The translations under genes and the position numbers were made by a program. This document shows positions 29,460-51,107 of a stretch of DNA of 64,000 bases, one piece after another (positions within the stretch are counted from its first letter, which is position 1; every line of letters begins with the position of its first letter). The DNA is taken from positions 1 through 64,000 of the forward strand of contig JAOAPR010000112.1 of the NCBI GenBank assembly GCA_025463005.1, read 5' to 3'. The DNA is from Bryobacterales bacterium (lineage in GTDB: Bacteria > Acidobacteriota > Terriglobia > Bryobacterales > Bryobacteraceae). The notes under the pieces are model-generated. The model was not told the origin of the DNA and made no database searches. It saw only the letters and a program-made list of their open reading frames with translations.

Positions 29460-29894
29460 TTACTTCTTGCTGGTGGTCGAATTTGGAGCAACCGGTTCGG
29501 TCGGCCTAAGCACCTGGTCTTGTCCGATCAACGCATCCCGCCCATCTGCGAACGTAACGACATTGCCTGAAGCATTATTCGAGCCGTCCTTGGCTTGATG
29601 TCCGGTGATCGTCAGCACCTCTCCGATTTTCAGGCTGCTCTTGGTGATGCCTCTCCTTTGCAACATACCCGGAGGTGAGGCGGAGAAGCCCCAATTCACC
29701 ACCTTGCCGTTCTGATCCTTGACGTCCAGATACACCCAAATGTGAGGATTGGCCCACTCGACCTTAGTAAGCACGCCGGTCATCTTGATCGGTTTTTGCG
29801 TGTCGAACTCCGCCGTATATGCGTGGTGCGCAAAGATCGGCACTGCCGCGGCCAGTATGAAACTTGTCGCCAAAATCGCTAGCTTTGTCGTCAT
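29460..29894 (-). CDS. DUF6152 family secreted protein (copy 1)
   Basis: A 144-residue exported protein: signal peptide to about 22 followed at once by HHAYTAEFD, then GVLTKVEWANPHIWVYLDVKD, ASPPGMLQRRGITKSSLK and VLTITGHQAKDGS. This matches DUF6152, small beta-rich proteins of unknown function. The paired histidines next to the mature N-terminus and the NPH motif suggest metal or cofactor binding (inference). A second copy at 49607 has the same partner gene downstream. Confidence 0.85.
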   Translation of the reverse strand: MTTKLAILATSFILAAAVPIFAHHAYTAEFDTQKPIKMTGVLTKVEWANPHIWVYLDVKDQNGKVVNWGFSASPPGMLQRRGITKSSLKIGEVLTITGHQAKDGSNNASGNVVTFADGRDALIGQDQVLRPTEPVAPNSTTSKK

Positions 29895-30066
29895 CGCGAT
29901 ATCGCCCGTAGGGGTCGTTCACCGGCTGGTACGCCCAATTCTACTTGCGGCTTTGCAATTGTGTCAAACATGCGCGGCGGCGCGGCGTGCAAAACACGCT
30001 ACTATCAACTAGCAAGTCCACGCCACGACTGGGCCATCGGCTTCCACGTTGAGGGAAGGAAATTAC

Positions 30067-30894
30067 ATGCAGATTCGGCTCGGCTACGAATTAAACTACG
30101 ATTTCCCCCAATCCACGCCGATGATCCTGGCGTTGAGCATCCATTATTCACGCGCCTCGGACATCATCATTCCGGATTATCTGACCACCGAACCGTCCGT
30201 ACCGATCGGAGGGTATCGCGATGGTTTCGGTAACTGGTGTACCCGGGTCGTCGCGCCGCGCGGGCGATTCCGAATCAAAACCGACGGGCTCATCCGCGAT
30301 ACCGGCCAACCGGACAGGATCGTTGCCGATGCCCGTCAGCATGGGGTGCAGGATCTGCCGGAAGAGACGCTGGTCTTCCTGTTGGGCAGCCGTTATTGCG
30401 AGACGGATCTGCTGTCCCCGATGGCTTGGGACATGTTCGGGCAGTCCGACCCTGGTTGGGCGCGCGTGCAGGCGATCTGCGATTATGTGCATAATCTGAT
30501 CGCCTTCGACTATCAGCAGGCGCGCGCCACACGGACCGCTTGGCAAGCCTTGAACGAGTGCACCGGAGTCTGCCGCGACTACGCACACCTCGCCATTACA
30601 TTTTGCCGCTGCCTTAATATTCCGGCCCGCTATTGCACGGGTTATCTAGGGGATATGGGGACTCCCCCGCCCTACGGCGTCGGGGATTTTGCCGCATGGT
30701 TTGAAGTCTATATCGGGGGCGGCTGGCACACCTTCGACGCGCGCAACAATACGCCACGGATCGGCCGCGTTCTGCTGGCGCGAGGCCGCGATGCGTCCGA
30801 CGTTGCGATCGCGACAACTTTCGGCCCAAACACGCTGGAAAGCTTCAAAGTCTGGACTGACGAGGCCTCCGAGTCCATCGGCCCCGTCCATTGA
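30067..30894 (+). CDS. Transglutaminase-like protein, histidine-less type (paralogue 1)
   Basis: A 275-residue cytosolic protein with a transglutaminase-like core. The nucleophile region is CTGVCRDYAHLAITFCRCL (C169), and the acid position is D224 (TFDARNNTPRIGR). At the place of the catalytic histidine (DxHAW in the family) it has DFAAW, alanine at 209. The paralogue at 31705 aligns without gaps over these positions. ATG 30067 is preceded by AAGGA at 7 bases; an upstream ATG at 30049 adds six residues. It may use another histidine (for example H221) or be non-hydrolytic. Confidence 0.83.
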   Translation: MQIRLGYELNYDFPQSTPMILALSIHYSRASDIIIPDYLTTEPSVPIGGYRDGFGNWCTRVVAPRGRFRIKTDGLIRDTGQPDRIVADARQHGVQDLPEETLVFLLGSRYCETDLLSPMAWDMFGQSDPGWARVQAICDYVHNLIAFDYQQARATRTAWQALNECTGVCRDYAHLAITFCRCLNIPARYCTGYLGDMGTPPPYGVGDFAAWFEVYIGGGWHTFDARNNTPRIGRVLLARGRDASDVAIATTFGPNTLESFKVWTDEASESIGPVH

Positions 30895-30910
30895 AACAGA
30901 GAAATGGACG

Positions 30911-31468
30911 TTAGCGCCCGGTTTCGCGCGACGCACCCTGCGAGCTGACCTTCTTCTCGCCCGCCGAGGAAATATCCTGCGCGCCGGTCTGCTCCAGAAT
31001 CTCCTTAGCCCGCGAGACTTCGTCGGAGGTTTCGCAGTGCACGGAGACCAGGATGCCGCCTTCTTTAATTCGTCCCTCGTAGCGCTTGGCTTCGTATTCA
31101 GGGATACCCATCCCAACCAGCGCTCCAACCAGGCCCCCGACCGCCCCTCCGGCGCCCATTCCAGCCAGCGCCGCCATGATCGGTCCCGCGGCGATCAGGG
31201 GTCCAACGCCCGGAATACTGAGCGCCCCGATCCCCGCCAGTAGGCCCAAGGCGCCTCCGATCACGCCACCGGTTGCGGCACCGGCTGCCGCGCCTTCAGG
31301 GGCCTTTGTGTTCTTCTCATGCGCGAATTCTTTGGTGCTGTGTTCGTCTGACATCAGCACTGAGATGTCGTTGGTGCTGAATCCGGCCGAGGTCAAGCGC
31401 TCTATCGCCTGTTCGGCCTGCGCCCGGCCTCTGTAAATGCCGAAAACTGCAGTGTTCTTACCAGCCAT
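30911..31468 (-). CDS. General stress protein 17M-like, glycine-zipper protein
   Basis: A 185-residue protein: an N-terminal alpha/beta domain like general-stress 17M/YflT proteins (AVFGIYRGRAQAEQAIERL, FSTNDISVLMSD), a long Gly/Ala-rich hydrophobic segment with GxxxG repeats (about 58-122) that could insert in a membrane, and a second ferredoxin-like part (GGILVSVHCETSDEVSRAKEIL). GGAG lies before the ATG. It is encoded opposite to, and between, the two short transglutaminase paralogues. Function unknown. Confidence 0.75.
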   Translation of the reverse strand: MAGKNTAVFGIYRGRAQAEQAIERLTSAGFSTNDISVLMSDEHSTKEFAHEKNTKAPEGAAAGAATGGVIGGALGLLAGIGALSIPGVGPLIAAGPIMAALAGMGAGGAVGGLVGALVGMGIPEYEAKRYEGRIKEGGILVSVHCETSDEVSRAKEILEQTGAQDISSAGEKKVSSQGASRETGR

Positions 31469-31704
31469 AGTGACTCCTTAGATCAGTCTCAAGATTCCTT
31501 GAGCCAACGCAGTGTTAGATCCCGGCCTGGACCAGCCGTTTCTACTCCCGGGTTAATGCAGGATCTGGAGAGTCATCTAGTCCACTGGTCTTATGCTTGC
31601 TGGAGTTTTTTCAGGCTGAAGCTCTGAGATAAAATGTGGGCTGCCACGTTTGCACATCGGCTACGCACGCCCTCGCTCCGATCCTGAGAAGGAAAGAAAC
31701 GAAC

Positions 31705-32514
31705 ATGCTGATCCGGCTGGGCTACGACATACAATTTGAGCTTCCCACCGACGTTCCTTTTATCGGTCTGGTGAACGTTCACCCATCGCGGTGGGCCGAT
31801 CTTCGAGAGCCCGACCAAGTGACCATCGAACCCGCCACGCCTGTAACCTGCTACGCCGATTCCTTCGGAAACCGAAGTACCAGATTCATGGCGCGGAAAG
31901 GAACCGTCCGGCTGTACAACTCGACTCTGATCGAAGATCCCGGCGCTCCCGACCCTGTGAATCCCTACGCTCGAGAAATCTGCGTCGAACACCTTCCGCA
32001 AGAGACCTTGATCTACCTTCTGGCTAGCCGCTATTGCGAGGTGGATCTGCTATCGAACACCGCGGCCCAGATGTTCGGCGGGTTGCCGCGGGGATGGCAG
32101 CGAGTGCAGGCGGTTTGCGACTTTGTGCAAAGCCACGTCACATTCGGCTACGCTCACGCCCGCTCTACCCGGACAGCGCTCGAAGTCTTCAATGAACGGG
32201 TGGGCGTCTGCCGCGATTTTCAGCATCTCGCCGTGACGTTATGCCGCTGTTTAAACATCCCGGCGCGCTATGTAACCGGATATCTCGGGGATATCGGCGT
32301 CCCCCCCGTCGATTGCCCAATGGATTTCAGTGCCTGGTTCGAAGTGTACCTGGAGGATCGTTGGTGGACCTTTGACGCGCGCCACAATACGCCCAGGATC
32401 GGGCGGGTTCTCATGGCGACTGGCCGGGACGCGGCGGACGTGGCGATCACAACTTGTTTCGGAGCGGCCTATCTGAAAAAGTTTGAGGTCGTCACCGAAG
32501 AGGTTTCTAGCTAA
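31705..32514 (+). CDS. Transglutaminase-like protein, histidine-less type (paralogue 2)
   Basis: A 269-residue paralogue of the 30067 gene with identical spacing: C169 in RVGVCRDFQHLAVTLCRCL, S209 in DFSAW where the catalytic histidine is expected, and D224 in TFDARHNTPRIGR. ATG 31705 is chosen from alignment with the paralogue and from AAGGA about 13 bases upstream; an ATG at 31636 would add a poorly supported leader. Its stop overlaps by 4 bases, tail to tail, the stop of the canonical transglutaminase on the other strand. The 236-base gap upstream shows no other gene. Confidence 0.83.
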   Translation: MLIRLGYDIQFELPTDVPFIGLVNVHPSRWADLREPDQVTIEPATPVTCYADSFGNRSTRFMARKGTVRLYNSTLIEDPGAPDPVNPYAREICVEHLPQETLIYLLASRYCEVDLLSNTAAQMFGGLPRGWQRVQAVCDFVQSHVTFGYAHARSTRTALEVFNERVGVCRDFQHLAVTLCRCLNIPARYVTGYLGDIGVPPVDCPMDFSAWFEVYLEDRWWTFDARHNTPRIGRVLMATGRDAADVAITTCFGAAYLKKFEVVTEEVSS

Positions 32515-33392
32515 GATTCGTCCAACGGCTCCATCTCTACGCCAACATCGAGCTCATGGTCGCGGCCTCCCAGGATAACGCCGCGCACGGGACTCACGTC
32601 ACCGTAATCGCGGCCCCAGGCGAGCGTGACGTGACCCTGGGACGGGATCAAATTATTAGTAGGATCCACGTCCAGCCAGCCCGTACCGGGACAATACACC
32701 GACACCCAGGCATGCGAGGCATCTGCGCCGATCAGTCTGGGACGGCCGGGTGGGGGCCATGTCCGCAGATATCCGCTTACGTACCTGGCAGGCAAGCCCA
32801 ACGAGCGCAAGCACGCTACTTGCAAATGAGCGAAGTCCTGACAGACACCCCTCCTGAGGCGAAGCACTTCATCCGGCGAGGTCCTTACATTGGTTGCTTT
32901 TGAATCGAAGCGGAAATCGTTGTAAATGCGTCCGGTGAAATCAAGTAAAGCTTCGGTTAGCGGCCGCGCGGGCGTAAACGATCGCGATGCATACTCTGCA
33001 AACACCGCGCCCGGTTTGACACGAGGCGACTCGAACACAAATTGATAAGCATCGAGCCCTGCCGGACTCAGGTCGGCCGGCAGACATCGGGCCACGTCGT
33101 CCCAGGCCGGTGAGGTGTCAGGCCAGACTACCGAATCGCCATCAATGAGAACCATGCTCCGGGCTTCGATGTTCAGCTCTTCATGGGGTTCCTGGATGGT
33201 GAAGAGAGTCACTGGATTGCCAAAGTAATCCACTCGTTCGCTTAGCCCGGAGGGAGCCGGCGTTACCAGCAACTCGTGCGACGTACAGGTGTGGTGCGGT
33301 TTGGTCCGCGGGGTCAGGTACGCCACATGATTCCCGAAAGAGACAGGATGCTTGTACTTGTAGGTCGTTTTATGAACGATACGGTAAGTCAT
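32511..33392 (-). CDS. Transglutaminase family protein with intact triad
   Basis: A 293-residue cytosolic cysteine protease/transglutaminase-like protein: N-terminal beta domain (YRIVHKTTYKYKHPVSFGNH) and a core with C184 (RRGVCQDFAHL), H227 (DASHAWVSVY) and D243 (WLDVDPTNN). Bacterial relatives act as peptidases or amidases. Its ATG overlaps the stop of the ATP-grasp gene by 4 bases (ATGA), so the two are coupled. Confidence 0.93.
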   Translation of the reverse strand: MTYRIVHKTTYKYKHPVSFGNHVAYLTPRTKPHHTCTSHELLVTPAPSGLSERVDYFGNPVTLFTIQEPHEELNIEARSMVLIDGDSVVWPDTSPAWDDVARCLPADLSPAGLDAYQFVFESPRVKPGAVFAEYASRSFTPARPLTEALLDFTGRIYNDFRFDSKATNVRTSPDEVLRLRRGVCQDFAHLQVACLRSLGLPARYVSGYLRTWPPPGRPRLIGADASHAWVSVYCPGTGWLDVDPTNNLIPSQGHVTLAWGRDYGDVSPVRGVILGGRDHELDVGVEMEPLDES

Positions 33393-35881
33393 CCGCCCAT
33401 ACTGATCGGGAAAGTGCGCGCATGGTTGAAGTACGTGAGCGAAATGTTATCCGCCCAGGAAGGCAGCAGGTTGTGGACAAAGCCAAGAGAACCTTCGAGT
33501 TGCGCATGCCCTTCGACCCCCCACCCAGTCCGTCCGCTGCCCGGCAGCGGAAAATCCAGCTTCTGAAGGTCCAAACCTCGTAGGCGGCTTTGCGCGTGCA
33601 GGATTGCGTCCAAATCGTCCGACGAATGACGGGGCAGCTTTCGATATAGGTCAGCCAAATGAGCTACTTGGAAGTTCAAAGATCGTGGATTGGATTCATC
33701 CGCCATCAACAGGTCCAGCACCGCCACGGGCTGCAGGGTCGTGAAGTAGCGCGATCGGTAGGTCATGGAACTATCTGCCACTTCGAGTAAATACTCCAGC
33801 AGAGGCCAGCTTTCCTCGTCGAATTGCGTGGTCAATTCCTGCATCTGCCTAACCGAGTACATCGCGCGCTCCAGCCGGCGCCCCAGACTCATGAAAAGCC
33901 AGCCCGGTCCGCGAGTAATATTTTCCCGTTCCATGCCGGAAAATGCGGAGAGTAGCTCCAGGCACCCGCTGAGTACGGCCGAGTACTCGATAAACAGCAT
34001 GTACTCCTCGGTGTGAGCGGAATTGGCCAGCTCTACGACGAGTCGCGACATATCCTCGGATAGCCGCTCGCGAAGATTTCCGCCGACGCGCTGGACCTCG
34101 GCCAAGGTCGAGGCGAGGCTGTCCGGCCGCTCGGCGTCCGACATTAGAGAGACGAGTTCGTCTTCCAGCTCGCGCGGGGTGGCAGGCCGGTCTTCTGGCA
34201 GAATGCTGTGCTGCGAGTCAAAACAACTGTGCAGGCGAAACAGGCACTTCAGTTCGGCCTTACTGGCTCGCCGGACGCGCGTCATCAGGCAGCGCAGCAG
34301 GCGCGCGATGCACTCTGACCGTTCCGCATAGCGGCCCAGCCAAAAAAGGTGGTCCGCGGCGCGGCTCGGCAGGTCTGCGAGCACGTGTTGCAGTTGAACT
34401 GGCTGGTTCCGCGGGCGCAGCATGCTGAACGTGTCCACCGCTCCGTCCCACAAAACCCACGCGTCTTTGCTGCGGCCGCCGCGCTGCATGGAGACCACCG
34501 GGCCATCGGCTCCGGCGACGCGCACCAGGCCGCCCGGCATCGCGACCCAACCGGAATTGGTATTCAGAACATACGTCCGCAGCACAAGGCTTCGCGAATA
34601 AACATGGCCGTGGTCCCACACCGGGGCCGTGGAGAGAGGCACCTGTTCCTGCGCCACGAATTCGTAAGGGCGTGCACGCACCTGATCGCCGATTTTCTGC
34701 CTTTCCGCCTTTGCGAGGCCGGCGCCGAAGATGGGCTCCATTCCACGCAACGGGAACGCCGGTTTAACCACTACCTGATCCAAATGGTGCAGCACCCAAT
34801 CCAGCGCGTAATCCTGACCGCACCACCAGGTCGCGACAGAAGGCAATTTGAGCGGCTCGCCCAGCAGTTTCCTCGCAAGACCCGGGAGAAACGGCATAAT
34901 GGCCGCAGTCTCGATCACGCCGCTTCCCAGCGCATTTGCCACCACTACATTTCCGGCGCTGATCGCATCTACTAATCCCGCAACTCCCAGGAGCGAATCG
35001 CCGCGCAGCTCGAGCGGATCGCAGAAACTGTCGTCAATCCGGCGGAGGATCACGTCCACGGGTTGCAGGCCTTCCACGGTTTTCAGGTAGACGCGCCGAT
35101 CGCGAACTGTTAGATCGGCTCCCTCGACCAGCGTGAATCCAAGATACCTAGCCAGGTAGGAATGCTCGAAGTAAGTCTCGTTGAATGGTCCCGGCGTCAG
35201 CAGCACCGCGCGTGGGTGATCGGACCTCGCTAAACCGAGCAGCGCGTCACGCTGGGCCCGGAAAAACGAAGCCAGACGTCTGACGTTCGCCGTGTGGAAC
35301 GCGTCCGGCAGAACGTCTGAGACGATCGTGCGATTTTCGAGCGCATATCCCGTTCCCGAAGGCGATTGCGTGCGGTCCGCGAGCACCCACCAGGTGCCGT
35401 CCGGCGAGCGCGCCAGGTCCACCGCGAGCAGATGCAGATACGATTGCTTCGGAACCGCGACTCCCGTCAGCGGCCGCAAAAAGGCCGGATTCGCAAAGAG
35501 TAAAGCCGACGGAAGGTCCCCGTTTGAAACCAGGTTGCGAGCGCCGTAGATATCCTCGAGGAGCAGGCTGAGCAGATGAGCCCGTTGAATGATGCCCGCC
35601 TCGATGACACGCCACTCTTCCGGCGAGATAAGAAGCGGGATCGGATCGATCGCCAGCGGCCGGCTTGCGCCCTGAGGATCCGTGTAGATGTTGTAGGTGA
35701 CCCCGTTTTCCCGAATTCGACGTTCAGCACGCTCCCAGCGGCGCGCCAGTTCGTCGGTTCCGATGGCCTGAAGCGACTCGATGAAGTGCGCCCAGTGCGG
35801 CCTGGGAGTTACTCCATCTGGAGCGAGCTCATTATAAACCGACTGGTCGAGTAACGGAATTTGAAGCAGATCAGCGATCAT
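33389..35881 (-). CDS. Circularly permuted ATP-grasp / alpha-E fusion protein
   Basis: An 830-residue fusion. Residues about 60-490 are a circularly permuted ATP-grasp (DUF404/DUF407 type): ENRTIVSDVLPDAF, AVLLTPGPFNETYFEH, ANALGSGVIETAAIMPFLP and VVKPAFP. From about 505 (SRAADHLFWLGRYAERSE) to the end runs an alpha-E (DUF403) helical domain. In other genomes these are often separate neighbouring genes. ATP-grasp enzymes of this class are predicted amide/peptide ligases acting with transglutaminase-like peptidases; no product is known to me. Confidence 0.92.
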   Translation of the reverse strand: MIADLLQIPLLDQSVYNELAPDGVTPRPHWAHFIESLQAIGTDELARRWERAERRIRENGVTYNIYTDPQGASRPLAIDPIPLLISPEEWRVIEAGIIQRAHLLSLLLEDIYGARNLVSNGDLPSALLFANPAFLRPLTGVAVPKQSYLHLLAVDLARSPDGTWWVLADRTQSPSGTGYALENRTIVSDVLPDAFHTANVRRLASFFRAQRDALLGLARSDHPRAVLLTPGPFNETYFEHSYLARYLGFTLVEGADLTVRDRRVYLKTVEGLQPVDVILRRIDDSFCDPLELRGDSLLGVAGLVDAISAGNVVVANALGSGVIETAAIMPFLPGLARKLLGEPLKLPSVATWWCGQDYALDWVLHHLDQVVVKPAFPLRGMEPIFGAGLAKAERQKIGDQVRARPYEFVAQEQVPLSTAPVWDHGHVYSRSLVLRTYVLNTNSGWVAMPGGLVRVAGADGPVVSMQRGGRSKDAWVLWDGAVDTFSMLRPRNQPVQLQHVLADLPSRAADHLFWLGRYAERSECIARLLRCLMTRVRRASKAELKCLFRLHSCFDSQHSILPEDRPATPRELEDELVSLMSDAERPDSLASTLAEVQRVGGNLRERLSEDMSRLVVELANSAHTEEYMLFIEYSAVLSGCLELLSAFSGMERENITRGPGWLFMSLGRRLERAMYSVRQMQELTTQFDEESWPLLEYLLEVADSSMTYRSRYFTTLQPVAVLDLLMADESNPRSLNFQVAHLADLYRKLPRHSSDDLDAILHAQSRLRGLDLQKLDFPLPGSGRTGWGVEGHAQLEGSLGFVHNLLPSWADNISLTYFNHARTFPISMGG

Positions 35882-35992
35882 AGCTGCCGGCTCTTATGCC
35901 GTTGTAGAGATCGTAAAGTCCATTGATTCCTGAAAAGCGGCTTGCTTCCGATCATAACAGCCCGACAGTGTGACGGCGCGTATACGCGATTT

Positions 35993-38900
35993 TCAGGCCG
36001 AGCGGCGTAAATCCAGCGTCAACGGAAATTCCGGATTGTTTTCTTCCAGTGGAATCGCGATCGGACCTGGAGTGTGACCGGTGGGGGTGAAGCGAGCCAG
36101 GCGGCGGCTTTCGGCCTCGTTCGCGTTTACGGGAAATTGTTCGTTAGCCCTTCCGCCGGGGTGAGAAACGTGATACGTGCAGCCCCCAATGGCGTGGCCG
36201 GACCATGTATCCACCAGGTCGAAGACCAGAGGCGCATGCACCGGAATGTTGGGATGCAGGCACGAGGGGGGCTGCCACGCACGATATCTGACGCCCGCCA
36301 CAAACTCCCCTGTTTCGCGTCCCGGATGCAGTGGCACGCGCCGGCCGTTGCAGACGACTACAAAGCGCGGGTCGACTAACCCCGATACTTTGACCTGTAG
36401 CCGCTCTACCGACGAATCTACGTTTCGCACCGTTGCGCTACCCGAGGCTTCTTCGCCCAATACGTTCCAGGGCTCCAGAGCATGCCGCAATTCCAGATGA
36501 ATGCCTCGCCGGGTGATGGAGCCGACGGCCGGAAATCGAAACTCGAAGTGGGGCGCGAACCACTCCGTTTGAAAAGCGTAGCCGGCCCTCTTCAAGTCTT
36601 CCAGAACGTCTTCCCAGTCAAGAAGCACGAAATGCGGCAACAGGAAACGTTCGTGAAGAGCGGTGCCCCAGCGCACAAGTTTTTCCTTGTGCGGACTCCG
36701 CCAGAAGCGGGCGATCAGGGCCCGCACAAGCAACTGTTGCGTGAGACTCATCCGCGCGTGCGGGGGCATCTCAAATGCGCGCAGCTCGACCAGTCCAAGC
36801 CGCGATCCCGCCGCCTCCGGCGGGTACAGCTTGTCGATACACAGCTCCGCGCGATGCGTGTTGCCGGTAACGTCGATAAGCAAATTGCGAAACACGCGAT
36901 CCACCGTCCAGGGCGTGATGTTGGGCGTGCCCGCATCTGGAATCTGGCTGAAAGCGATTTCCAGCTCGTAGAGCGAATCGGTGCGCGCCTCGTCCACCCG
37001 CGGATGCTGGCTGGTTGGACCGATGAACAGCCCGGAGAAAAGATACGACAAGGACGGGTGGTTTTGCCAGTACCCGACCAGGCTTCTCAAAAGATCGGGG
37101 CGTCGCAGGAACGGGCTGTCGTCCGGGGTGGCTCCGCCGAGCACCACGTGATTTCCACCGCCGGTTCCAGAATGCCGGCCGTCGATCATGAATTTCTCGG
37201 TGCCTAGACGACACTGGCGCGCCAGTTCATATAGCTCCGTGGTGTTTTCGACCAGTTCATCCCAGCCCCCGACGGGTTGGACGTTCACCTCGATGACACC
37301 CGGGTCGGGCGTGACCTTGAGAACCGAAATACGCGGATCGTATGGCGGCGTGTAACCCTCGATCATCACCGGCATCCGAAGATGCGCCGCAGTGTCCTCA
37401 ATGGCCGCAACCAGGTCCAGGTAGTCCGCCAGGTACTCGACCGGCGGCATGAACACGAAGAGCTTTCCGTCGCGGGGCTGGATACATATTGCGGGACGTG
37501 ACACCCACTTCGAAGACTCGCCTTTCTTCAGCGCCTCAGGGTCGCGGGACGGCGGTTCCGGTTCGTCCGGAAAAGGCGGCGCGCTAAATAGGTCGGGCCT
37601 TCGTTGAGGTTTTTCCGGAAGCTTGTCGCGCTTCTGAAACGGATCCGGATCGTAGCTCCATTGGACGTCTTCCGGCTTGGTCCACGGTAGAGAGTCCAGC
37701 GGCAAACGGTATCCCATCGCAGAATCGCCGGGGATGAGAAACAGATGCTCCGGCCGAACAAACCACGGCTGGCTGGTCCAGCGCGGATTCCCAGTTTTGG
37801 AGGGTATCCGGCGAAGAGGAAGGAAGTATCCCACGGTCGCGCCCAGACCTTGTTCGAACACACGCGCCAACTGTTCGCGATCCGTTGGATCTTTCAGCTT
37901 CGAATCGAGAGGGTCGACATTGCCTGGCAGCCTACGTTCTTTCCACAGATAGTAGAAGACGTCTTCATATGCGGGCGTGATGAAGGACGAGCTTACCTGG
38001 AGGCGCCGCGTTAGAGTTTCGAGAAATAACTTCGCACTCGCGGCCGTATGTTTATAGTCCTTTTTTTCGTCGGCGATCAGACCGGGATCTTCCCAAATCG
38101 CCACGCCGTCCTTGCGCCAGTAACAGCCGAGAGCCCAGCGCGGCAGCAGCTCGCCCGGATACCACTTGCCTTGACCGAAATGCAATAAGGCGCCGGATGT
38201 AAAGCCGTCGCGCAGCTTGAGAAGCAGTTCGACAGCCAGCTTTCGTTTTTGCGGACCAAGGGCGCTGCTGGTCCACTCGGGACCGTCGGCGTCGTCAACG
38301 GAGACGAAGGTAGGTTCGCCACCCATCGTGAGCCGTACGTCTCCCTTGCGCAAATCAGCCTCGACTTTTTGCCCGAGAGCCGAGATGTCCCGCCACTGTT
38401 CCTCGCTATAAGGCTTGGTAACCCGGGACGATTCAAAGATCCGCTGAACCGTCATCTCATGACGGAACTCCGTGTTACAGGGATCGAGTAGCCCGGAGAC
38501 GGGAGCAGCGCTGCTTGCGTCGGGTGTGCACGCCAGGGGGATGTGACCCTCGCCGGCGAGCATTCCCGACGTTGGGTCGAGTCCAACCCAACCGGCACCG
38601 GGCAGGTAGACTTCCGCCCACGCATGCAGATCTGTAAAATCGGCGGCCGGTCCGGCGGGTCCCTCTAAGGGTTTGACGTCGGCCGCAAGTTGAATAAGGT
38701 AACCGGAGACGAAGCGCGCCGCAAGTCCCAGATTGCGAAGAATCTGGACCAGCAGCCACGCCGAATCCCTGCATGAACCTGTGCCGAGATTGAGCGTCTG
38801 CTCGCACGTCTGGACGCCCGGCTCCATACGAATGACGTAGCCGATTTCGCTTCGCAGACGCTGATTAAGGGCCACAAGAAAGTCGATCGTACGCACGCTT

Positions 38901-39310
38901 TCGCGCGGCACTTTACTTAAGAAAGAGCAGAGAGCCGGTCCGACTGATTCGGTCTCGAGGAAGGGACGCAATTCCCGGGCAACTTCAGCGTTGTATGAAA
39001 ACGGATATCGCTCCGCGCTCGGCTCAAGAAAAAAGTCGAACGGATTGAACACCGCCATCTCGATAACCAGATCCACCTCGACCAGAAACTGCGTCGTGGG
39101 CTCAGGAAACACCAGGCGTGCGAGATAATTGGCTTGCGGGTCTTGCTGCCAGTTGATGAAGTGGTTCTTCGGATCTATTTTCAGCGAGTAGCTGAGAATC
39201 GGGTTGCGGGAATGCGGCGCCGGACGGAGCCGTACGATTTGAGGACCGAGATTAACCCTGCGGTCGTATAGATAGTGCGTTTTGTGATTCAGCGCAACGT
39301 GAATCGCCAT
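35993..39310 (-). CDS. Transglutaminase-DUF2126 protein
   Basis: An 1105-residue protein. Residues 1-90: transglutaminase N-terminal beta domain (HVALNHKTHYLYDRRVNLGP). Residues about 150-260: peptidase core with C180 (GTGSCRDSAWL), H229 (DLHAWAEVY) and D245 (GLDPTSG). Residues about 300-1105: DUF2126 (VRLTMGGEPTFVSVDD, FMPPVEYLADYLDLVAAIE, GRHSGTGGGNHVVLGG, LRPGR-like end), which I recall being related to amidoligase-type enzymes and found beside alpha-E/ATP-grasp genes. It is first of three minus-strand genes, 111 bases ahead of the ATP-grasp gene. Confidence 0.93.
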   Translation of the reverse strand: MAIHVALNHKTHYLYDRRVNLGPQIVRLRPAPHSRNPILSYSLKIDPKNHFINWQQDPQANYLARLVFPEPTTQFLVEVDLVIEMAVFNPFDFFLEPSAERYPFSYNAEVARELRPFLETESVGPALCSFLSKVPRESVRTIDFLVALNQRLRSEIGYVIRMEPGVQTCEQTLNLGTGSCRDSAWLLVQILRNLGLAARFVSGYLIQLAADVKPLEGPAGPAADFTDLHAWAEVYLPGAGWVGLDPTSGMLAGEGHIPLACTPDASSAAPVSGLLDPCNTEFRHEMTVQRIFESSRVTKPYSEEQWRDISALGQKVEADLRKGDVRLTMGGEPTFVSVDDADGPEWTSSALGPQKRKLAVELLLKLRDGFTSGALLHFGQGKWYPGELLPRWALGCYWRKDGVAIWEDPGLIADEKKDYKHTAASAKLFLETLTRRLQVSSSFITPAYEDVFYYLWKERRLPGNVDPLDSKLKDPTDREQLARVFEQGLGATVGYFLPLRRIPSKTGNPRWTSQPWFVRPEHLFLIPGDSAMGYRLPLDSLPWTKPEDVQWSYDPDPFQKRDKLPEKPQRRPDLFSAPPFPDEPEPPSRDPEALKKGESSKWVSRPAICIQPRDGKLFVFMPPVEYLADYLDLVAAIEDTAAHLRMPVMIEGYTPPYDPRISVLKVTPDPGVIEVNVQPVGGWDELVENTTELYELARQCRLGTEKFMIDGRHSGTGGGNHVVLGGATPDDSPFLRRPDLLRSLVGYWQNHPSLSYLFSGLFIGPTSQHPRVDEARTDSLYELEIAFSQIPDAGTPNITPWTVDRVFRNLLIDVTGNTHRAELCIDKLYPPEAAGSRLGLVELRAFEMPPHARMSLTQQLLVRALIARFWRSPHKEKLVRWGTALHERFLLPHFVLLDWEDVLEDLKRAGYAFQTEWFAPHFEFRFPAVGSITRRGIHLELRHALEPWNVLGEEASGSATVRNVDSSVERLQVKVSGLVDPRFVVVCNGRRVPLHPGRETGEFVAGVRYRAWQPPSCLHPNIPVHAPLVFDLVDTWSGHAIGGCTYHVSHPGGRANEQFPVNANEAESRRLARFTPTGHTPGPIAIPLEENNPEFPLTLDLRRSA

Positions 39311-40167: not shown

Positions 40168-42087
40168 ATGAAACGACCGGCTTGGATTCTCTCCATCCTG
40201 TTCGGTAGCTCGTTGGCGCTATCCCCGCAAACAAAGGAATCGTCGCGACAGGTTGAATGGCTCTACTACGGCGGCGATCCGGGCGGGGCCAGATACTCGC
40301 CGCTCGCCGATATCAATGCCGAAAACATAGCACGGCTCCAAGTCGCCTGGCAATGGAAGCATTGGGAGGCGCCCCTAGAACAGTTTGGAACCACGCCAGG
40401 TTTCTTCGAGAACACGCCCCTGATGATCGATGGTGTGCTCTACGTCACCACGCCTTACAACAGTATCGCTGCGCTGGATGCTGAGACCGGGAAAGAACTA
40501 TGGCGCTTCGACGGAGAGGCCTACAAGCTCGGCCAGATTCTGTCGGGAAGCGGATGGAAGCTGCGCGGAACGGCTTTCTGGCGCGATGGCAACAAGCTGC
40601 GCCTTTTCCTCAACAGCCGGCATCGGCTGTTCTCTCTGGATGCCCAGTCTGGAAAGCCGGTTTCCTCCTTTGGGGACAACGGAGTAGTGTCACTGGTCGA
40701 CGGCCTGCCGCGCATTTCCGACATAAAGCACGCCACGCAAAGCTCAGCCGCGGTTGTATACAAAGATCTGGTCATCCTTGGCAGCCAGATCCCCGACCGG
40801 GTTCAGCTGCCCGATCCAGCAGGCTATGTGCAAGCCTTCCACGCGCGCACCGGCAAGCGAGTGTGGAGCTTCTCGGTGATTCCGCAATCGTCCAAGGATC
40901 CCGGCGCCGAAACGTGGGAGAACGGCTCCTGGCGAACCAGCGGCCATGGCAACGTTTGGGCGCCGATGACGCTCGACGAGTCGCGTGGGCTGCTCTACGT
41001 GCCCACATCGACCCCATCCAGCGACTATTACGGCGGCCAGCGCCCCGGAGCGAATCTATTCGCCGAGTCGCTGGTCTGCCTGGAAGCCGCCACCGGCAAA
41101 ATCAAGTGGTACTTCCAAACCGTCCACCACGGCCTGTGGGACTGGGACAATCCGGCGCCGCCCAACCTGGTAACCATCACTGTGAATGGCCGGCGGATCG
41201 ATGCGGTGGCCCAGATCACCAAGCAAGGCTTCACTTACGTGTTCGATCGGGTCACGGGGCAACCGGTCTGGCCCATTGTCGAACGTGCCGTGCCGACGGA
41301 TAGCGACGTGCCCGGCGAGAAGCCTTATCCGACCCAGCCGTTCCCCACCAAGCCCCCGCCGTTTGTCGCACAAGGTGTTTCGCTCGAGGATGCCAACAAC
41401 CTGACGCCCGAAATCAAGGCTTTAGCGCAGGAACAAATGCGGAAATTTCGAATTGGTCCGATGTTTACGCCGCCCTCGCTCGAAGGGACGCTCCAGCGCC
41501 CATCGCAGGGTGGAGGAGCTAACTGGGGCGGCGCGGCATTCGATCCCGAGACCGGCTATCTGTTCGTGCGCGCGGCCAATGCGGTGGGCCTGAACCGGCT
41601 TGCAAAAAACGATGGTAGCGATCCCCTGGTGGCGGTCGACTACTCGAATGTTTTCGCGCGCGGCGGCGAATCCGTCAGCCTGCCGGGTGGTCTTCCTCTG
41701 AACTCGCCGCCCTACGCAGTCCTGACCGCGATTGATTTGAATCGAGGCGAGATCGCGTGGCAGTCGCCGTTGGGCGAAGGAAGTCCCGCGCTGCGCAATC
41801 ATCCGATGTTGAAAGGCGTTACGCTACCGGATCGCTTGGGATCGCCGAACAGCCGCGGCGGCGCGATGGTGACCCGGAGCGGGCTGGTATTCATCGGCGG
41901 CGGAGACGGCTACTTGTACGCATTCGATAAGAAGACCGGCAAGGAAGTCTGGCGTGGAAAGGTTCCGTATGAGAATGCCGCGGTTCCGATGACCTATCGC
42001 ACGCGTGCCGGCCGGCAGTTCGTCGTCATAGCCACGGGCACAGGAGCCGAAAACGCGCTGGTGGCCTTCGCAATCGGAAACCAGTAA
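40168..42087 (+). CDS. PQQ-dependent quinoprotein dehydrogenase (glucose/quinate type)
   Basis: A 639-residue exported eight-bladed propeller. Signal peptide to about residue 20; repeats with tryptophan docking motifs (ALDAETGKELWRFDG, YVFDRVTGQPVWP, YLYAFDKKTGKEVWRGK). TVHHGLWDWDNPAPPNLV and VAQITKQGFTYVFDR are hallmarks of membrane-glucose/quinate dehydrogenase-type quinoproteins. No cytochrome c domain or N-terminal membrane region, so it should be soluble periplasmic and need a separate electron acceptor. No pqq biosynthesis gene is in the window. Substrate unknown. Confidence 0.92.
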   Translation: MKRPAWILSILFGSSLALSPQTKESSRQVEWLYYGGDPGGARYSPLADINAENIARLQVAWQWKHWEAPLEQFGTTPGFFENTPLMIDGVLYVTTPYNSIAALDAETGKELWRFDGEAYKLGQILSGSGWKLRGTAFWRDGNKLRLFLNSRHRLFSLDAQSGKPVSSFGDNGVVSLVDGLPRISDIKHATQSSAAVVYKDLVILGSQIPDRVQLPDPAGYVQAFHARTGKRVWSFSVIPQSSKDPGAETWENGSWRTSGHGNVWAPMTLDESRGLLYVPTSTPSSDYYGGQRPGANLFAESLVCLEAATGKIKWYFQTVHHGLWDWDNPAPPNLVTITVNGRRIDAVAQITKQGFTYVFDRVTGQPVWPIVERAVPTDSDVPGEKPYPTQPFPTKPPPFVAQGVSLEDANNLTPEIKALAQEQMRKFRIGPMFTPPSLEGTLQRPSQGGGANWGGAAFDPETGYLFVRAANAVGLNRLAKNDGSDPLVAVDYSNVFARGGESVSLPGGLPLNSPPYAVLTAIDLNRGEIAWQSPLGEGSPALRNHPMLKGVTLPDRLGSPNSRGGAMVTRSGLVFIGGGDGYLYAFDKKTGKEVWRGKVPYENAAVPMTYRTRAGRQFVVIATGTGAENALVAFAIGNQ

Positions 42088-42099
42088 GTTTCGCGGACT

Positions 42100-43092
42100 T
42101 TATCTTTCGACTTTCGTACCGAGGCCCTGGGCCTCCAAGTCGCGCGCGCCCTGGAGCGCGTCGAACATCATGTAATTGCCCTCGTGACAGGCGTACTCGT
42201 AGATCTTATACTCCGGATCCAGTTTGAAGGGATAACGGAGCGTATAGGGCTTGGTCCACACGTTCGGATCGCTGATGGTGGCTTCCCATATAAGCTCGTC
42301 GGGAGCGGTGCGCGTGAAACGTTCCGTCACTTTGGCCGCATCAGTATAGCGGCCGCCAGAGGCGGATTCCGGCCTCAAATTGGTGGTCTCAACCACCAGC
42401 GTGTTCCCCTCCCAGTGACCGACCGAGTTGCCCATGTAGGTCTTGATATCTTTGCCGATGTGAGAACGCCCGTCGGTCGGAATGACCCGCTGTTCGTGAA
42501 CCATTTCAGAGCGGATCACGACATATCCGGGAGCCTGGATAATCTCGTTTCCGTAGTCGTACAACGTGTACAGCATGGTGGAAGGGAAGCCGCGCGTAAT
42601 GCAGCGGCTATAGTAGTCGAAATCCACCCAGGAATCGACTTTGTCGGGGAAGTGCTGACCCGGACCCAGGCCGCCTCGCTCCGCCTGAAGAATGGCACGG
42701 GCCTGCGGCGTCAAGGGAGGCATTTTCCCATCCGGCGGATCCACTACCAGCGAAGTTTGCTTGTGCGGCTTTCCGATCTCGGAGAAGTTCGACGGAGGTC
42801 CGATTCCCACGCGTCCGGTATTTGCTGGGGATTGTTGGCGAGCTTCAAATTGCTTCGCCGTCTGAGCCTGCCTTTGAGCGACCTCGTCATCCGAGAGGAT
42901 GTTCTCTTTGACGTTCGCAGGCCGCTCCCTCGGGATATTGAACTGTGCCGGCCAGTTTCCCTGGAGATCCGGATCGCCCCACGGAGTCTTGGGCGGCGCA
43001 TAGGTTTTCGAGTTGGCCGGCGAGGTCTGCCCCACCATCGAGAGAGAGAAGGCGACAAATACAGCGGCCACCGTGACAAATCGATGCCTCAT
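42100..43092 (-). CDS. Secreted WEGD-family protein (copy 2)
   Basis: A 330-residue exported member of the family, with a longer N-terminal part (PPKTPWGDPDLQGNW) after the signal peptide. Core motifs: SRCITRGFPSTM, VIRSEMVHEQRVIPTDGR, MGNSVGHWEGNTLVVETTNL, KVTERFTRTAPDEL, ATISDPNVWTKPY and IYEYACHEGNY. It is the most divergent in spacing but keeps both cysteines shared by all five copies. It is convergent with the quinoprotein gene (12-base gap). Confidence 0.8.
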   Translation of the reverse strand: MRHRFVTVAAVFVAFSLSMVGQTSPANSKTYAPPKTPWGDPDLQGNWPAQFNIPRERPANVKENILSDDEVAQRQAQTAKQFEARQQSPANTGRVGIGPPSNFSEIGKPHKQTSLVVDPPDGKMPPLTPQARAILQAERGGLGPGQHFPDKVDSWVDFDYYSRCITRGFPSTMLYTLYDYGNEIIQAPGYVVIRSEMVHEQRVIPTDGRSHIGKDIKTYMGNSVGHWEGNTLVVETTNLRPESASGGRYTDAAKVTERFTRTAPDELIWEATISDPNVWTKPYTLRYPFKLDPEYKIYEYACHEGNYMMFDALQGARDLEAQGLGTKVER

Positions 43093-46971: not shown

Positions 46972-47736
46972 TCACTTACCCGGCAGGTGCTCCACGTCCT
47001 TGTTGTTTTCGTTGCAGATGAATTCCAGCAGTTCCGTATCCGGCAGCAGGTGCACGTCTTGAGTCACGGTCCAGGGCCTGGTGTAAGCTTTGGAGTCGTC
47101 GATGGTGATTTGAAGGTCCATGTGCCCGAAGTCGCGTCGCCGGAAGCGTTCGATCACATGCAAGGCGTCGGTGGAAGGCCGGCCTAACTGGTCCAGCCAA
47201 GCCTTGCCATTGAACCCCTTCGTGTCCACAACAAGCGTATCGCCCTCCCACTTCCCTACCGAGTAACCCATCCAGGACGGATTGGTGTCGGGCGCCACCT
47301 CGCGGCCATCCAGAAAAATCTGCCGCCAGAGATTGAAGGCTTCATACGCGATCACGATGAAGCGTGGCGTCTGAACGATCTTCCACGGCGCGGGAGCAGC
47401 GTCGATCTTGGGCACGCCTTGGGGCAGGCAGTTGGCGTCCGGGTCTTCCTTGGAATGCGATCCGTCGATGCGCTGCTCGAACACCGCCTTGGCCCACGGC
47501 TGATAGGGAACTTGATCCGGTTTGAGGTCGACGGCAATATCGCGAAGGTACTTGTTGGCGTTCGGTTCCCACACACCCGACAAGTCCGGCGTTCGGTCGG
47601 GCAAGCGCGGCGCGGGCGCGGAAAGATTCGCCTTGCCGTCCGGCGTGCGTGGAATGGGCGCCGGCGGGACTTTGGTCCACTGCGCCCAAAGCGGCATGGA
47701 CATCATCATCAGGAATACGGCCATTCGTAGTTGCAT
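46972..47736 (-). CDS. Secreted WEGD-family protein (copy 3)
   Basis: A 254-residue exported protein giving the clearest family consensus: signal peptide ending LWAQ, PIPRTPDGKANLSAPAPR, TPDLSGVWEPN, ANCLPQGVPKIDAAPAPWKI, IVIAYEAFNLWRQIFLDGRE, WMGYSVGKWEGDTLVVDTKG, WLDQLGRPSTDALHVIERF, RRRDFGHMDLQITIDD, LLPDTELLEFICNENNKD. Most similar to copy 5. No known catalytic motif; the conserved W-E-G-D, D-x-x-F-x-x-x-W and E-R-F-x-R positions could form an active site (inference). It lies 10 bases behind the GlcG-like gene, same strand. Confidence 0.83.
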   Translation of the reverse strand: MQLRMAVFLMMMSMPLWAQWTKVPPAPIPRTPDGKANLSAPAPRLPDRTPDLSGVWEPNANKYLRDIAVDLKPDQVPYQPWAKAVFEQRIDGSHSKEDPDANCLPQGVPKIDAAPAPWKIVQTPRFIVIAYEAFNLWRQIFLDGREVAPDTNPSWMGYSVGKWEGDTLVVDTKGFNGKAWLDQLGRPSTDALHVIERFRRRDFGHMDLQITIDDSKAYTRPWTVTQDVHLLPDTELLEFICNENNKDVEHLPGK

Positions 47737-47746
47737 TAAGACCTCA

Positions 47747-48238
47747 CTATTTCAAAAGCTCCGCCACCTTCGCGATGCCTGCTTTCGCACACGCATCATC
47801 GGTCTCCTGGCTGGACCCCGAGCTGCCGACGCCTCCGATTGTGTCGTTGCCCACCTGGATGGGCACACCCCCGCCCAATGCCAGGATGTCCGCGATGTCA
47901 CGCTGCGCCGCGTACGCCGGATCGCTCGTGCGTTTCTGAAACTCGAGCGTAGTGGTGCGGAACATGCGCGCCGTGTAGGCCTTGCGACGGGCCATGTCCG
48001 CCTGCTGGGCAGTGGCCTGTTCATCGCGCAGGATCACCATCACCTGGCCTGCCCGGTCGACGACGGCCACCGCGGTATTGAAGCCTTTTGACTTGCACGC
48101 CGCGAGCGCTGCTTCGGCGATCATCTTTGCCATGGGCAGTGACAGATTGCGCTGGGTAATTAAACCTTGCGGGGTCGCCGGGACCGACGCTACTACGGCC
48201 AAGGCAATTCCCACCCAGGTTTTCAATGTGTAGGACAT
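47747..48238 (-). CDS. GlcG/HbpS-family heme-binding-like protein, exported
   Basis: A 163-residue protein with a signal peptide (VGIALAVVASVPATPQG) before a DUF336/GlcG-HbpS domain: NLSLPMAKMIAEAALAACKSKG, TAVAVVDRAGQVMVILRDEQ, ALGGGVPIQVGNDTIGGVG, GSSQETDDACAKAGIAKV. HbpS is an extracellular heme-degrading sensor partner; many GlcG proteins accompany oxidoreductases. It shares a 39-base divergent promoter gap with the acetyltransferase gene. Confidence 0.9.
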   Translation of the reverse strand: MSYTLKTWVGIALAVVASVPATPQGLITQRNLSLPMAKMIAEAALAACKSKGFNTAVAVVDRAGQVMVILRDEQATAQQADMARRKAYTARMFRTTTLEFQKRTSDPAYAAQRDIADILALGGGVPIQVGNDTIGGVGSSGSSQETDDACAKAGIAKVAELLK

Positions 48239-48806: not shown

Positions 48807-49592
48807 CTACTTGGCGTCGCCGAGTCCTTCCGGGCACGCGAACTCCCGAAGCTCGTCGTTTCCCGATGTCGCCTTTCGATAGGTTTTAACGGTTTGCCAA
48901 GGCTTGGTGAGTGCTTTGGGATCAGTGACGGTGATCCGATCCTCCAAAAGGCCGGGACTGGTAAACCGGATGCGCTCCTTGATCGTCATCGCGTCGCTAT
49001 GCGGCGAGAAACCTTCGATGAACGAGTTCTCGTGCAGCGCGACCGTGTCTACAACCAGCGTGTCGCCTTCCCAGTGACCCGTCGAGTAACCAGCATAAGT
49101 GGGATCATCCAGAACCTTCTGGGTAGGCTTGCGCCCGTCCAGGTAAACACGCCGCAACGCGTCGTTCAGCTCGCTAAAGAAGGTGATCTTGTCCTTGGTC
49201 TGCATGACTTCCATCCCGTACGCCATGCTCATCATCGCCGGCATCCCGGGCGGCAGGCACTTGGCGGTGTTGTCGTACTCCGAGGAACCAGCCATGCGCG
49301 ATTTCCGGATCACTTCCCACTTCGCCATGTACTCGGGTGTAAGCGACGGAGCATCCGGTGAACGCCCCTGTGAGCCATCCGCGAGCGGCGCCGACTGGGC
49401 GGGTCGTGGCGGCGGGCCTTTCTCTTTTCCTGTAGCCGCAGGCCCCTTTCCCGCGGCAGGCGCTTGCGGAACGGCGGCCGCACCGAACGGATTAAGCGGA
49501 TAGTAGACGCCGGAAAAATCCGGCGTGGCCTGAGCGTAGAGCGCGGGAATCGCCAGGCTTAACAAAGACAGGATTGATTTCCGGATCGTCAT
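48807..49592 (-). CDS. Secreted WEGD-family protein (copy 4)
   Basis: A 261-residue exported member. Signal peptide MTIRKSILSLLSLAIPALYAQ, TPDFSGVYYP, then a Pro/Ala/Gly/Lys-rich linker (about 40-75), AKCLPPGMPAM, TFFSELNDALRRVYLDGRK, GYSTGHWEGDTLVVDTVAL, TIKERIRFTSPGLLEDRITV and ELREFACPEG. ATG 49592 has GAGGA 4 bases upstream; the frame is open further upstream but runs over the DUF6152 gene. It follows that gene by 14 bases, repeating the arrangement seen at 28631-29894. Confidence 0.83.
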   Translation of the reverse strand: MTIRKSILSLLSLAIPALYAQATPDFSGVYYPLNPFGAAAVPQAPAAGKGPAATGKEKGPPPRPAQSAPLADGSQGRSPDAPSLTPEYMAKWEVIRKSRMAGSSEYDNTAKCLPPGMPAMMSMAYGMEVMQTKDKITFFSELNDALRRVYLDGRKPTQKVLDDPTYAGYSTGHWEGDTLVVDTVALHENSFIEGFSPHSDAMTIKERIRFTSPGLLEDRITVTDPKALTKPWQTVKTYRKATSGNDELREFACPEGLGDAK

Positions 49593-49606
49593 AAGGTCCT
49601 CAGCGC

Positions 49607-49999
49607 CTATTGTGTAGGAGGCGGCGCGTTCGGAAGAATCGTGCCATCCGCCTTCGTCACGCGGGCAACCAGACCCGTTTTCGAGCCGTCCCTCGCGGGG
49701 CTCATGTCGACAGTTATCGTCTCGCCCGGCTTGAGCGAGCTCTTCGTCCAGCCGGCGCGGAGCAGCACTCCTGGCGCACGACCCTCCACAGCCCAATCTA
49801 CTTTCGCTCCCTTGCCATCGTCGACCGTCAGGAGCACCCACGTATGCGGATTCCTCCACTGAAAATCCTTGACGACTCCTGTGATCGTGATGACCTTAGT
49901 CACCTCGAATGCCACGTTGCTGTGGTGTGCCAAGCCTGGCGACGGATCGAAGAGCGCCGCCCCAAGCACGGCCGAAAGAGCGATGAAATGTGCCCGCAT
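49607..49999 (-). CDS. DUF6152 family secreted protein (copy 2)
   Basis: A 130-residue exported protein: signal peptide (IALSAVLGAALFDPSPGLA), then HHSNVAFEVTKVITITGVVK, WRNPHTWVLLTVDDGKG, APGVLLRAGWTKSSLKPGE and VDMSPARDGSKTG. It aligns along its length with the copy at 29460, and shares HH, NPHxWV, RxGxTKSSLK and DGS. It sits between WEGD copies 5 (upstream) and 4 (downstream), all minus strand, so the three probably form one transcription unit (43- and 14-base gaps). Confidence 0.85.
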   Translation of the reverse strand: MRAHFIALSAVLGAALFDPSPGLAHHSNVAFEVTKVITITGVVKDFQWRNPHTWVLLTVDDGKGAKVDWAVEGRAPGVLLRAGWTKSSLKPGETITVDMSPARDGSKTGLVARVTKADGTILPNAPPPTQ

Positions 50000-50042
50000 C
50001 GTCGTTCACCCCCAAAAAGTCTTCTGTAGCATATCAGGACGT

Positions 50043-51107
50043 TTACTGCTTCCGCACGGCCTTTCGATCATTATCTCCGCCATGGTAGATGAACCCCGTG
50101 ATCCTGTCCTGGGGATCCCGCGCGAATTCGATCCAGTCTCCGTTCGTGCGCGATACGAAGACGGTCTCCGATTTAGCCGCCAGCGGTAGCTTGAGGGGGT
50201 TCGCGCCTTCCTGCAGGAACAGCAGATCGCCGTCGAATGTGATCGCGGCGGGGCGCCCCGGTGCGTACTCGTAAGTCCCCACATACCGCGAGAGGACGTT
50301 GGGCGCAAGGCTGGTTATTTCCGTTCCTCCGAGCATATGCGGGACGGAGCGGTCATTCTCGCACACGCTCTCCAGAAGGTCGGTGTCGGGCGTCAACGTT
50401 TTGTCCATCCTGAACGAAAACGGTCTTGTAAACGCCTTTGGATCGTCGATGGTCATCTCCAGATCCATGTGTCCGAAATCGCGGCGCCGAAAACGTTCGG
50501 TAATATGAAGAGCTTCCGTGTGAGGATGGCCTTCGATGTCAAGCCAGCTTCTGTCATTGAAGCCCGCGGTATCGACCACCAGCGTGTCTCGATCCCAATG
50601 CCCCACCGAGTATCCCATCCAGGCGGGGTTGGGGTCTTTGGGAAGCTCACGGCCATCAGTGAAGATCGTTCGATGAACGCTATTGGTGGTGCCCTGATAC
50701 AGAATCACGATCACTCCAGGGCTTTGAATGAACCGCGCCAAGTCAACCATGTGGTAGTACGCGAAGGGGTCAGGCAGGCAATTCGCCCGCGGCGCGTCCT
50801 TCCCCATATCACGGACGCGCTGCTGGTAGAGTGCCTCCGCCCATGGCTGAATATCGCTGGGCTTCAGGTCTCTTGCAACATTCCGATCGTAACTACCCGC
50901 CCCGGGTCCTCGCCAGACGCCGGACAGATCCGGCTTACCATCCGGAGTGCGCGGTGAGGGCGCGGAAAGATTCGGCCTGCCGTCCGCCGTTCGCGGAATT
51001 CCAGGGGTCGGATAGTCGAGCCACTGCGCCGGGGCCTGCGTGGAGAGTAAGAACGCGATGCCTGTTGCACTCCAGAGTCTCCAGCCGATGTTGTGCTTCT
51101 TCGACAT
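50043..51107 (-). CDS. Secreted WEGD-family protein with extra C-terminal domain (copy 5)
   Basis: A 354-residue exported protein. Family core as in copy 3 (PGIPRTADGRPNLSAPSPR, PDLSGVW, RANCLPDPFAY, VIVILYQGTTNSVHRTIFTD, WMGYSVGHWDRDTLVVDTAG, RRRDFGHMDLEMTIDD, LLESVCEND), but the W-E-G-D motif is W-D-R-D. About 85 extra C-terminal residues (from VLSRYVGTYEYAPGRPAAI) look like a beta-rich domain of the kind fused to some beta-lactamase-like hydrolases. First gene of the 51107-48807 group. Confidence 0.82.
   Translation of the reverse strand: MSKKHNIGWRLWSATGIAFLLSTQAPAQWLDYPTPGIPRTADGRPNLSAPSPRTPDGKPDLSGVWRGPGAGSYDRNVARDLKPSDIQPWAEALYQQRVRDMGKDAPRANCLPDPFAYYHMVDLARFIQSPGVIVILYQGTTNSVHRTIFTDGRELPKDPNPAWMGYSVGHWDRDTLVVDTAGFNDRSWLDIEGHPHTEALHITERFRRRDFGHMDLEMTIDDPKAFTRPFSFRMDKTLTPDTDLLESVCENDRSVPHMLGGTEITSLAPNVLSRYVGTYEYAPGRPAAITFDGDLLFLQEGANPLKLPLAAKSETVFVSRTNGDWIEFARDPQDRITGFIYHGGDNDRKAVRKQ

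Follow-up and report, generated by a model that had tools for sequence, protein, structure and literature searches.

A recurrent, probably functional linkage of DUF6152 and WEGD proteins in Acidobacteriota and Gammaproteobacteria

The genes for DUF6152 and WEGD proteins are linked, and the linkage is real and old and probably functional. From gene adjacency, co-occurrence across genomes and natural single-gene fusions, we consider a physical partnership of the two proteins likely.

Results

Gene layout of the window

The window is the whole 64,000-nucleotide stretch of a Bryobacterales contig (JAOAPR010000112.1) that was analysed. A DUF6152 gene is followed on the same strand by a WEGD gene twice in it, as stated in a preliminary description of this DNA, and the open reading frames give the 40- and 14-base gaps and the minus strand for both pairs. 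The relevant features, with their supporting evidence, are the following.

28631-29419, minus: WEGD gene of the first pair, GTG start, 40 bases past the DUF6152 gene (open reading frame)
28634-29341, minus: part of the first-pair WEGD modelled by AlphaFold2
29460-29894, minus: DUF6152 gene of the first pair (open reading frame; PF19649, 98.0 bits)
40168-42087: PQQ dehydrogenase gene, converging on the WEGD gene at 42100-43092 with a 12-base gap
42100-43092, minus: additional WEGD gene with no DUF6152 neighbour (WEGD search)
46972-47736, minus: additional WEGD gene, downstream of the second pair (open reading frame, WEGD search)
47747-48238, minus: HbpS-like gene between two WEGD genes (PF03928, 111.3 bits)
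48807-49592, minus: WEGD gene of the second pair, 14 bases past the DUF6152 gene (open reading frame; no Pfam match)
49607-49999, minus: DUF6152 gene of the second pair (open reading frame; PF19649, 104.4 bits; alignment; translation)
49844-49846, minus: third His of this protein (NPH, residue 52; alignment, translation)
49922-49927, minus: His-His codons of this protein (translation)
49928-49999, minus: putative signal peptide of this protein (by eye)
50043-51107, minus: WEGD gene 43 bases upstream of the second-pair DUF6152 gene (open reading frame, Pfam scan)
about 50082-50303, minus: C-terminal DUF3471 domain of the preceding WEGD gene (Pfam)

The extra WEGD gene just upstream of the second pair had also been described correctly, and a WEGD-DUF6152-WEGD run with gaps of 43 and 14 bases extends on the minus strand from 51107 to 48807. 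Five WEGD genes occur in the window altogether; those named earlier are all present, whereas the copies at 42100-43092 and 46972-47736 had been overlooked. Both DUF6152 proteins score far above the Pfam cut-off of 27 for this family (PF19649). They share 43% identity and their partner WEGD proteins 30%, so the pairs do not stem from a fresh duplication, in agreement with the earlier view that they are diverged. The HbpS-like gene is a possible member of the cluster, and one other HbpS-like gene occurs among the own-genome neighbours. The DUF3471 domain was absent from the three other window WEGD copies scanned alongside. Between the two pairs (30049-39310) lies a cluster of transglutaminase-like, circularly permuted ATP-grasp, Alpha-E and DUF2126 genes.

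Adjacency and co-occurrence

The genome from which the window comes (6.36 Mb) contains 57 DUF6152 matches, as against none in any of 14 control genomes, and 147 WEGD matches, scoring having covered 150 of the 206 candidates and the matches including some that are pieces of one gene. Of the 57 DUF6152 matches, 41 have a WEGD match no more than 600 bp away, compared with about 2.5 expected from the 4.45% of the genome covered by WEGD matches and their margins; adjacency, the check named beforehand, is far above chance. The corresponding binomial P is 1e-42 and assumes an independence that paralogues do not have. When the search was extended to diverged calycins, the number of adjacent DUF6152 genes rose from 41 to 44. 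Since the remaining 13 of 57 still lack any calycin gene in the flanking 600 bp, DUF6152 may also act alone.

A similar picture was obtained in seven genomes from five other families of the phylum, where 47 of 70 DUF6152 domains have a WEGD within 600 bp (42 on the same strand, one fused and four on the opposite strand) and 23 have none; this count comes from regions centred on DUF6152 and excludes some copies of genome G053, one of G141 and all those of G114, G133, G142 and G151. Among 149 genomes of the phylum, our own included, DUF6152 is present in 12, WEGD in 13 and both in 12, in eight genera, and the lone genome with WEGD only is 75% complete.

Copy numbers vary widely, from 1 to 73 DUF6152 copies in each of fifteen relatives within the genus, while four genomes labelled as gammaproteobacterial have 18, 19, 57 and 22. 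In the order of one of these gammaproteobacteria, 19 of 145 sampled genomes match DUF6152 (18 above the cut-off, 15 single). The accessible part of a study on Solibacter (PMC3174227) describes many diverged paralogues, and that part has no mention of the DUF6152-WEGD pair.

Such very large expansions would also be expected if DUF6152 and WEGD acted separately, their linkage being a by-product of joint cluster duplication in paralogue-rich genomes. This explanation would likewise fit the variable gene order of the 41 adjacent cases, in which the nearest WEGD is downstream on the same strand in 24, upstream on the same strand in 16 and on the opposite strand in one, and the low share of WEGD matches (46 of 147) that lie within 600 bp of a DUF6152. 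Nevertheless, the presence of both gene orders indicates separate assembly or rearrangement with the linkage retained, and the co-occurrence in eight genera and the fusions found in two phyla (see below) argue in the same direction. We regard separate action as unlikely.

Single-gene fusions

DUF6152 followed by WEGD in one reading frame was found in 35 open reading frames of own and related loci, in one further case in G141 and in 20 cases, 19 of them distinct, in loci of the four gammaproteobacterial genomes. The distinct fusions total 52 across Acidobacteriota and Gammaproteobacteria, three having been encountered twice; because the loci were picked partly for resemblance to a fusion (80 of 327 kept) or for long frames, this number does not provide a frequency. 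One WEGD tree (369 rows), on which several supports are weak, implies at least five changes between fused and single states.

In Bryobacterales and Gammaproteobacteria, a single DUF6152 gene and a WEGD gene usually come after the fusion, and a gene for a small exported protein (about 130 residues) often stands before it. A c-type cytochrome often precedes it as well, mostly in Acidobacteriota loci. In the DUF6152-centred loci, all 59 open reading frames like the small exported protein, and 16 of 17 cytochrome-like ones, lie within 2.5 kb of DUF6152. The small protein (GHPLTGTW motif; locus L049, 7280-7684) occurs in two phyla, and the one copy scanned had no Pfam match. Six loci (L059, L078, L094, L095, L104 and L115) come from a metagenome bin labelled Bordetella parapertussis, which is probably mislabelled, since the L059 fusion groups inside Acidobacteriota.

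Co-divergence of the partners

The distances within the two families are correlated in three of four sets of pairs. In our own genome, r is 0.694 for 25 pairs with DUF6152 followed by WEGD (p <= 0.0002; shuffled control with mean -0.002 and maximum 0.444) and 0.748 for ten pairs with an upstream WEGD (p <= 0.0002), and in the other families it is 0.499 for 28 pairs with an upstream WEGD (p <= 0.0002). The 14 DUF6152-then-WEGD pairs of the other families show no co-divergence (r 0.127, p 0.21). Joint duplication alone could produce correlated distances, and on this point separate action of the two proteins would predict the same outcome. The maintained two-protein exported system proposed earlier is supported by adjacency in eight genomes of six families, by co-occurrence and by natural fusions, and by co-divergence in all but one of the sets.

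Predicted structures

An AlphaFold2 model of a fusion from a related genome (L049, 361 residues), built on 148 aligned rows, reached a mean pLDDT of 92.1, with only 74 for the first ten residues, and a pTM of 0.87. Were the two domains placed independently, the pTM would hardly be expected to rise above the fraction that the larger one contributes, about 0.7, so their relative placement is confidently predicted, even if the short linker may help. This result speaks indirectly to the co-folding check suggested beforehand. The alignments comprise A6 with 148 rows (33 fusions, 60 of 96 single DUF6152 and 55 of 117 single WEGD proteins), A8 with 120 of 125 listed rows, A4, from which two of the 57 DUF6152 were omitted as fragments, and A5 with 12 rows.

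The DUF6152 part of the fusion model is an OB fold, matching PriB (4apv; Z 9.7, 81 aligned residues, 2.3 A) with SSB entries tied. The WEGD of the first pair was modelled with a pLDDT of 86.3 and a pTM of 0.85, and superimposes on CRBPII (7lsq) with Z 10.0 over 118 residues at 3.8 A; 49 of the 50 structure matches listed for it are of FABP/CRBP type and the other is Oplophorus luciferase. In Foldseek, neither model had a match with E below 0.001 (best E for WEGD 1.4e-3). Sequence searches against solved structures gave no match for the WEGD profile and four for the DUF6152 or fusion profile, all with E 0.27 or worse.

WEGD proteins resemble the calycins (FABP, CRBP and lipocalins) in their predicted barrel and in the G-x-W motif of its first strand, in which Gly is present in 99% and Trp in 91% of 120 aligned rows. 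They differ from calycins by a long insertion after the first strand and by two invariant cysteines, which likely form a disulfide; the other invariant residues in these rows are one Gly, one Glu and one Asp. Another difference is that no calycin family was matched by Pfam in the 120 WEGD rows, two of which had weak hits in unrelated families (E 0.06), and that nothing in Pfam or NCBIfam scored above cut-off in the WEGD part of four scanned proteins. On the strength of the model, we regard a calycin-type barrel as the likely fold of WEGD.

Conserved histidines of DUF6152

We examined 308 distinct DUF6152 domains, 307 of which are complete, one being cut short. A His-His pair at a signal-peptidase-like site is found in 292 of the 307. 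In 282 of these the residue at -1 is Ala, and all 292 have the third His, which in our own genome lies within Asn-Pro-His in 54 of 57 domains. All three histidines are present in every one of the 255 complete single-domain copies. The 15 domains without His-His are all fusions, and the third His is lost in eight of them (six Arg, two Ser) and kept in seven. They all belong to a single part of the fusion tree with 17 rows, and as two rows there keep His-His, the loss probably occurred on several lines. Some loci were found by an AHHS pattern, which biases the counts toward His-His and not toward the third His. The three histidine columns are also spanned by the Pfam profile. This joint conservation and loss is the best evidence for a common role of the histidines, and it names no metal.

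In the fusion model, an 18-residue strand lies between the starting His-His and the third His, the latter being predicted in the turn after the first long strand of the barrel. The ends of this strand flank one face in the usual OB topology, so a single site of three histidines is possible; in the model, however, the starting pair and the third His may not form one site. We consider a candidate metal site in DUF6152 plausible, if tentative, and copper at this site less likely than a metal in general and somewhat doubtful.

Alternatively, DUF6152 and WEGD could form a complex that has no metal, in which the OB fold acts as an adaptor or folding partner and His-His serves partner contact or stability. 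The fusions and the confident domain arrangement suit such a complex, OB folds accept many kinds of ligands, and the third His is kept in seven of the 15 domains that have no His-His. On the other hand, of the 13 own-genome DUF6152 genes with no calycin neighbour, the 12 whose N terminus is complete all carry both His-His and the third His, and because these neighbourless copies keep the motif, it serves more than contact with an adjacent WEGD. We judge a metal-free complex rather unlikely, ranking it below the metal-bearing candidate.

Genomic context and comparison with copper proteins

The same-strand neighbours in our own genome are varied and include cytochrome c, PQQ dehydrogenase, metallo-beta-lactamase, HbpS, transporters and outer-membrane barrels. 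No neighbour enzyme dominates: each kind occurs at most 3 times among the 80 neighbours scanned, out of 86. In a second arrangement, some DUF6152 genes are accompanied by an exported metallo-beta-lactamase; of 17 open reading frames for such an enzyme, 12 lie within 2.5 kb of a DUF6152. Loci L042, L044, L045, L191, L192 and L213 of this arrangement also contain diverged calycin-like genes, with a weak DUF6644 match in L045.

One own-genome DUF6152 gene (L043, 6738-7121) is clustered with SCO1 and DUF420, both identified by Pfam, and with two genes that sequence features suggest to be CtaA and CtaB. This cluster, together with a predicted OB fold like that of CusF and SilF, would be consistent with DUF6152 being a CusF- or SCO1-type copper chaperone for respiratory or exported copper enzymes. 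A DUF6152 gene is nevertheless found in only one of 30 SCO1 loci taken from relatives and our own genome, namely our own, and is absent from 10 of the 11 in which DUF420 and the next gene are both visible (the loci reach 1.5 kb to each side, and 8 of the 19 with DUF420 are not fully covered beyond it). As the SCO1-adjacent DUF6152 is private to our own genome, the context gives no pointer to copper, and the copper-assembly reading of this neighbour was rejected.

DUF6152 resembles CusF and SilF in being a small exported barrel with a predicted OB fold and conserved His and Trp. We know of no pairing of CusF or SilF with a calycin. A homology to CusF found no support, hhalign giving a probability of only 8% against the two CusF sequences of the same genome that were compared. 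Pfam matched the two window DUF6152 proteins to PF19649 only and not to CusF_Ec; CusF is not among the best 50 PDB matches listed for the DUF6152 model, an absence that excludes nothing. CusF and SilF are periplasmic Cu(I)/Ag(I) chaperones with a His-Met-Met-Trp ligand set (PMC10656224), which is unmatched in DUF6152, whose part of alignment A6 has no conserved Met. A chaperone role of the CusF or SCO1 type appears highly improbable.

The histidine-brace copper proteins (LPMO, CopC, PmoB and X325) have a mature N-terminal His and a further His, as given in the accessible sections of PMC10952591. DUF6152 likewise has an apparent N-terminal His after its putative signal peptide and a further conserved His, and differs from them in its predicted OB fold and its two adjacent starting histidines. 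A search of the accessible literature returned nothing on DUF6152 or PF19649, on a histidine brace with an OB fold, or on WEGD in Acidobacteria.

Discussion

We tentatively propose one exported two-protein module, in which WEGD would handle a small molecule and DUF6152 would contribute a histidine metal site. The export is suggested by putative signal peptides, recognised by eye, and, for DUF6152, by a motif that resembles a cleavage site, Ala|His-His. DUF6152 and WEGD would be the two subunits of this module: the WEGD barrel would capture a small, probably hydrophobic molecule, and DUF6152 might dock on it and supply the metal site. By analogy with other proteins starting with histidine, copper would be the most likely metal. 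The many paralogues could differ in the substrates that they serve, each alongside other exported enzymes and c-type cytochromes.

VtrA and VtrC offer a comparison, as they form a calycin-type barrel built by both proteins. The module proposed here would likewise have an exported calycin-type barrel and two proteins, with DUF6152 being instead a separate predicted OB fold. The periplasmic bile-salt receptor VtrA/VtrC is described as involving two proteins in the accessible part of PMC4933562. A bolder and quite improbable extension of the proposed module is that DUF6152, as a novel kind of OB-fold protein dedicated to metal binding at a brace-like copper site with an N-terminal histidine, and the calycin make up a periplasmic copper oxygenase-type enzyme; linked c-type cytochromes would deliver its electrons, and dozens of substrate-specific paralogues would act on soil aromatics or lipids.

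About 200 matches in one genome belong to these two families of unknown function, and the same pair, fused or side by side, recurs in two phyla. The fusions are ready constructs, and the pairing is directly testable. Some soil bacteria hold dozens of copies of this undescribed exported pair and, if it is indeed a metal-bearing binding module, it would represent a large unrecognised layer of extracytoplasmic compound handling in soil bacteria.
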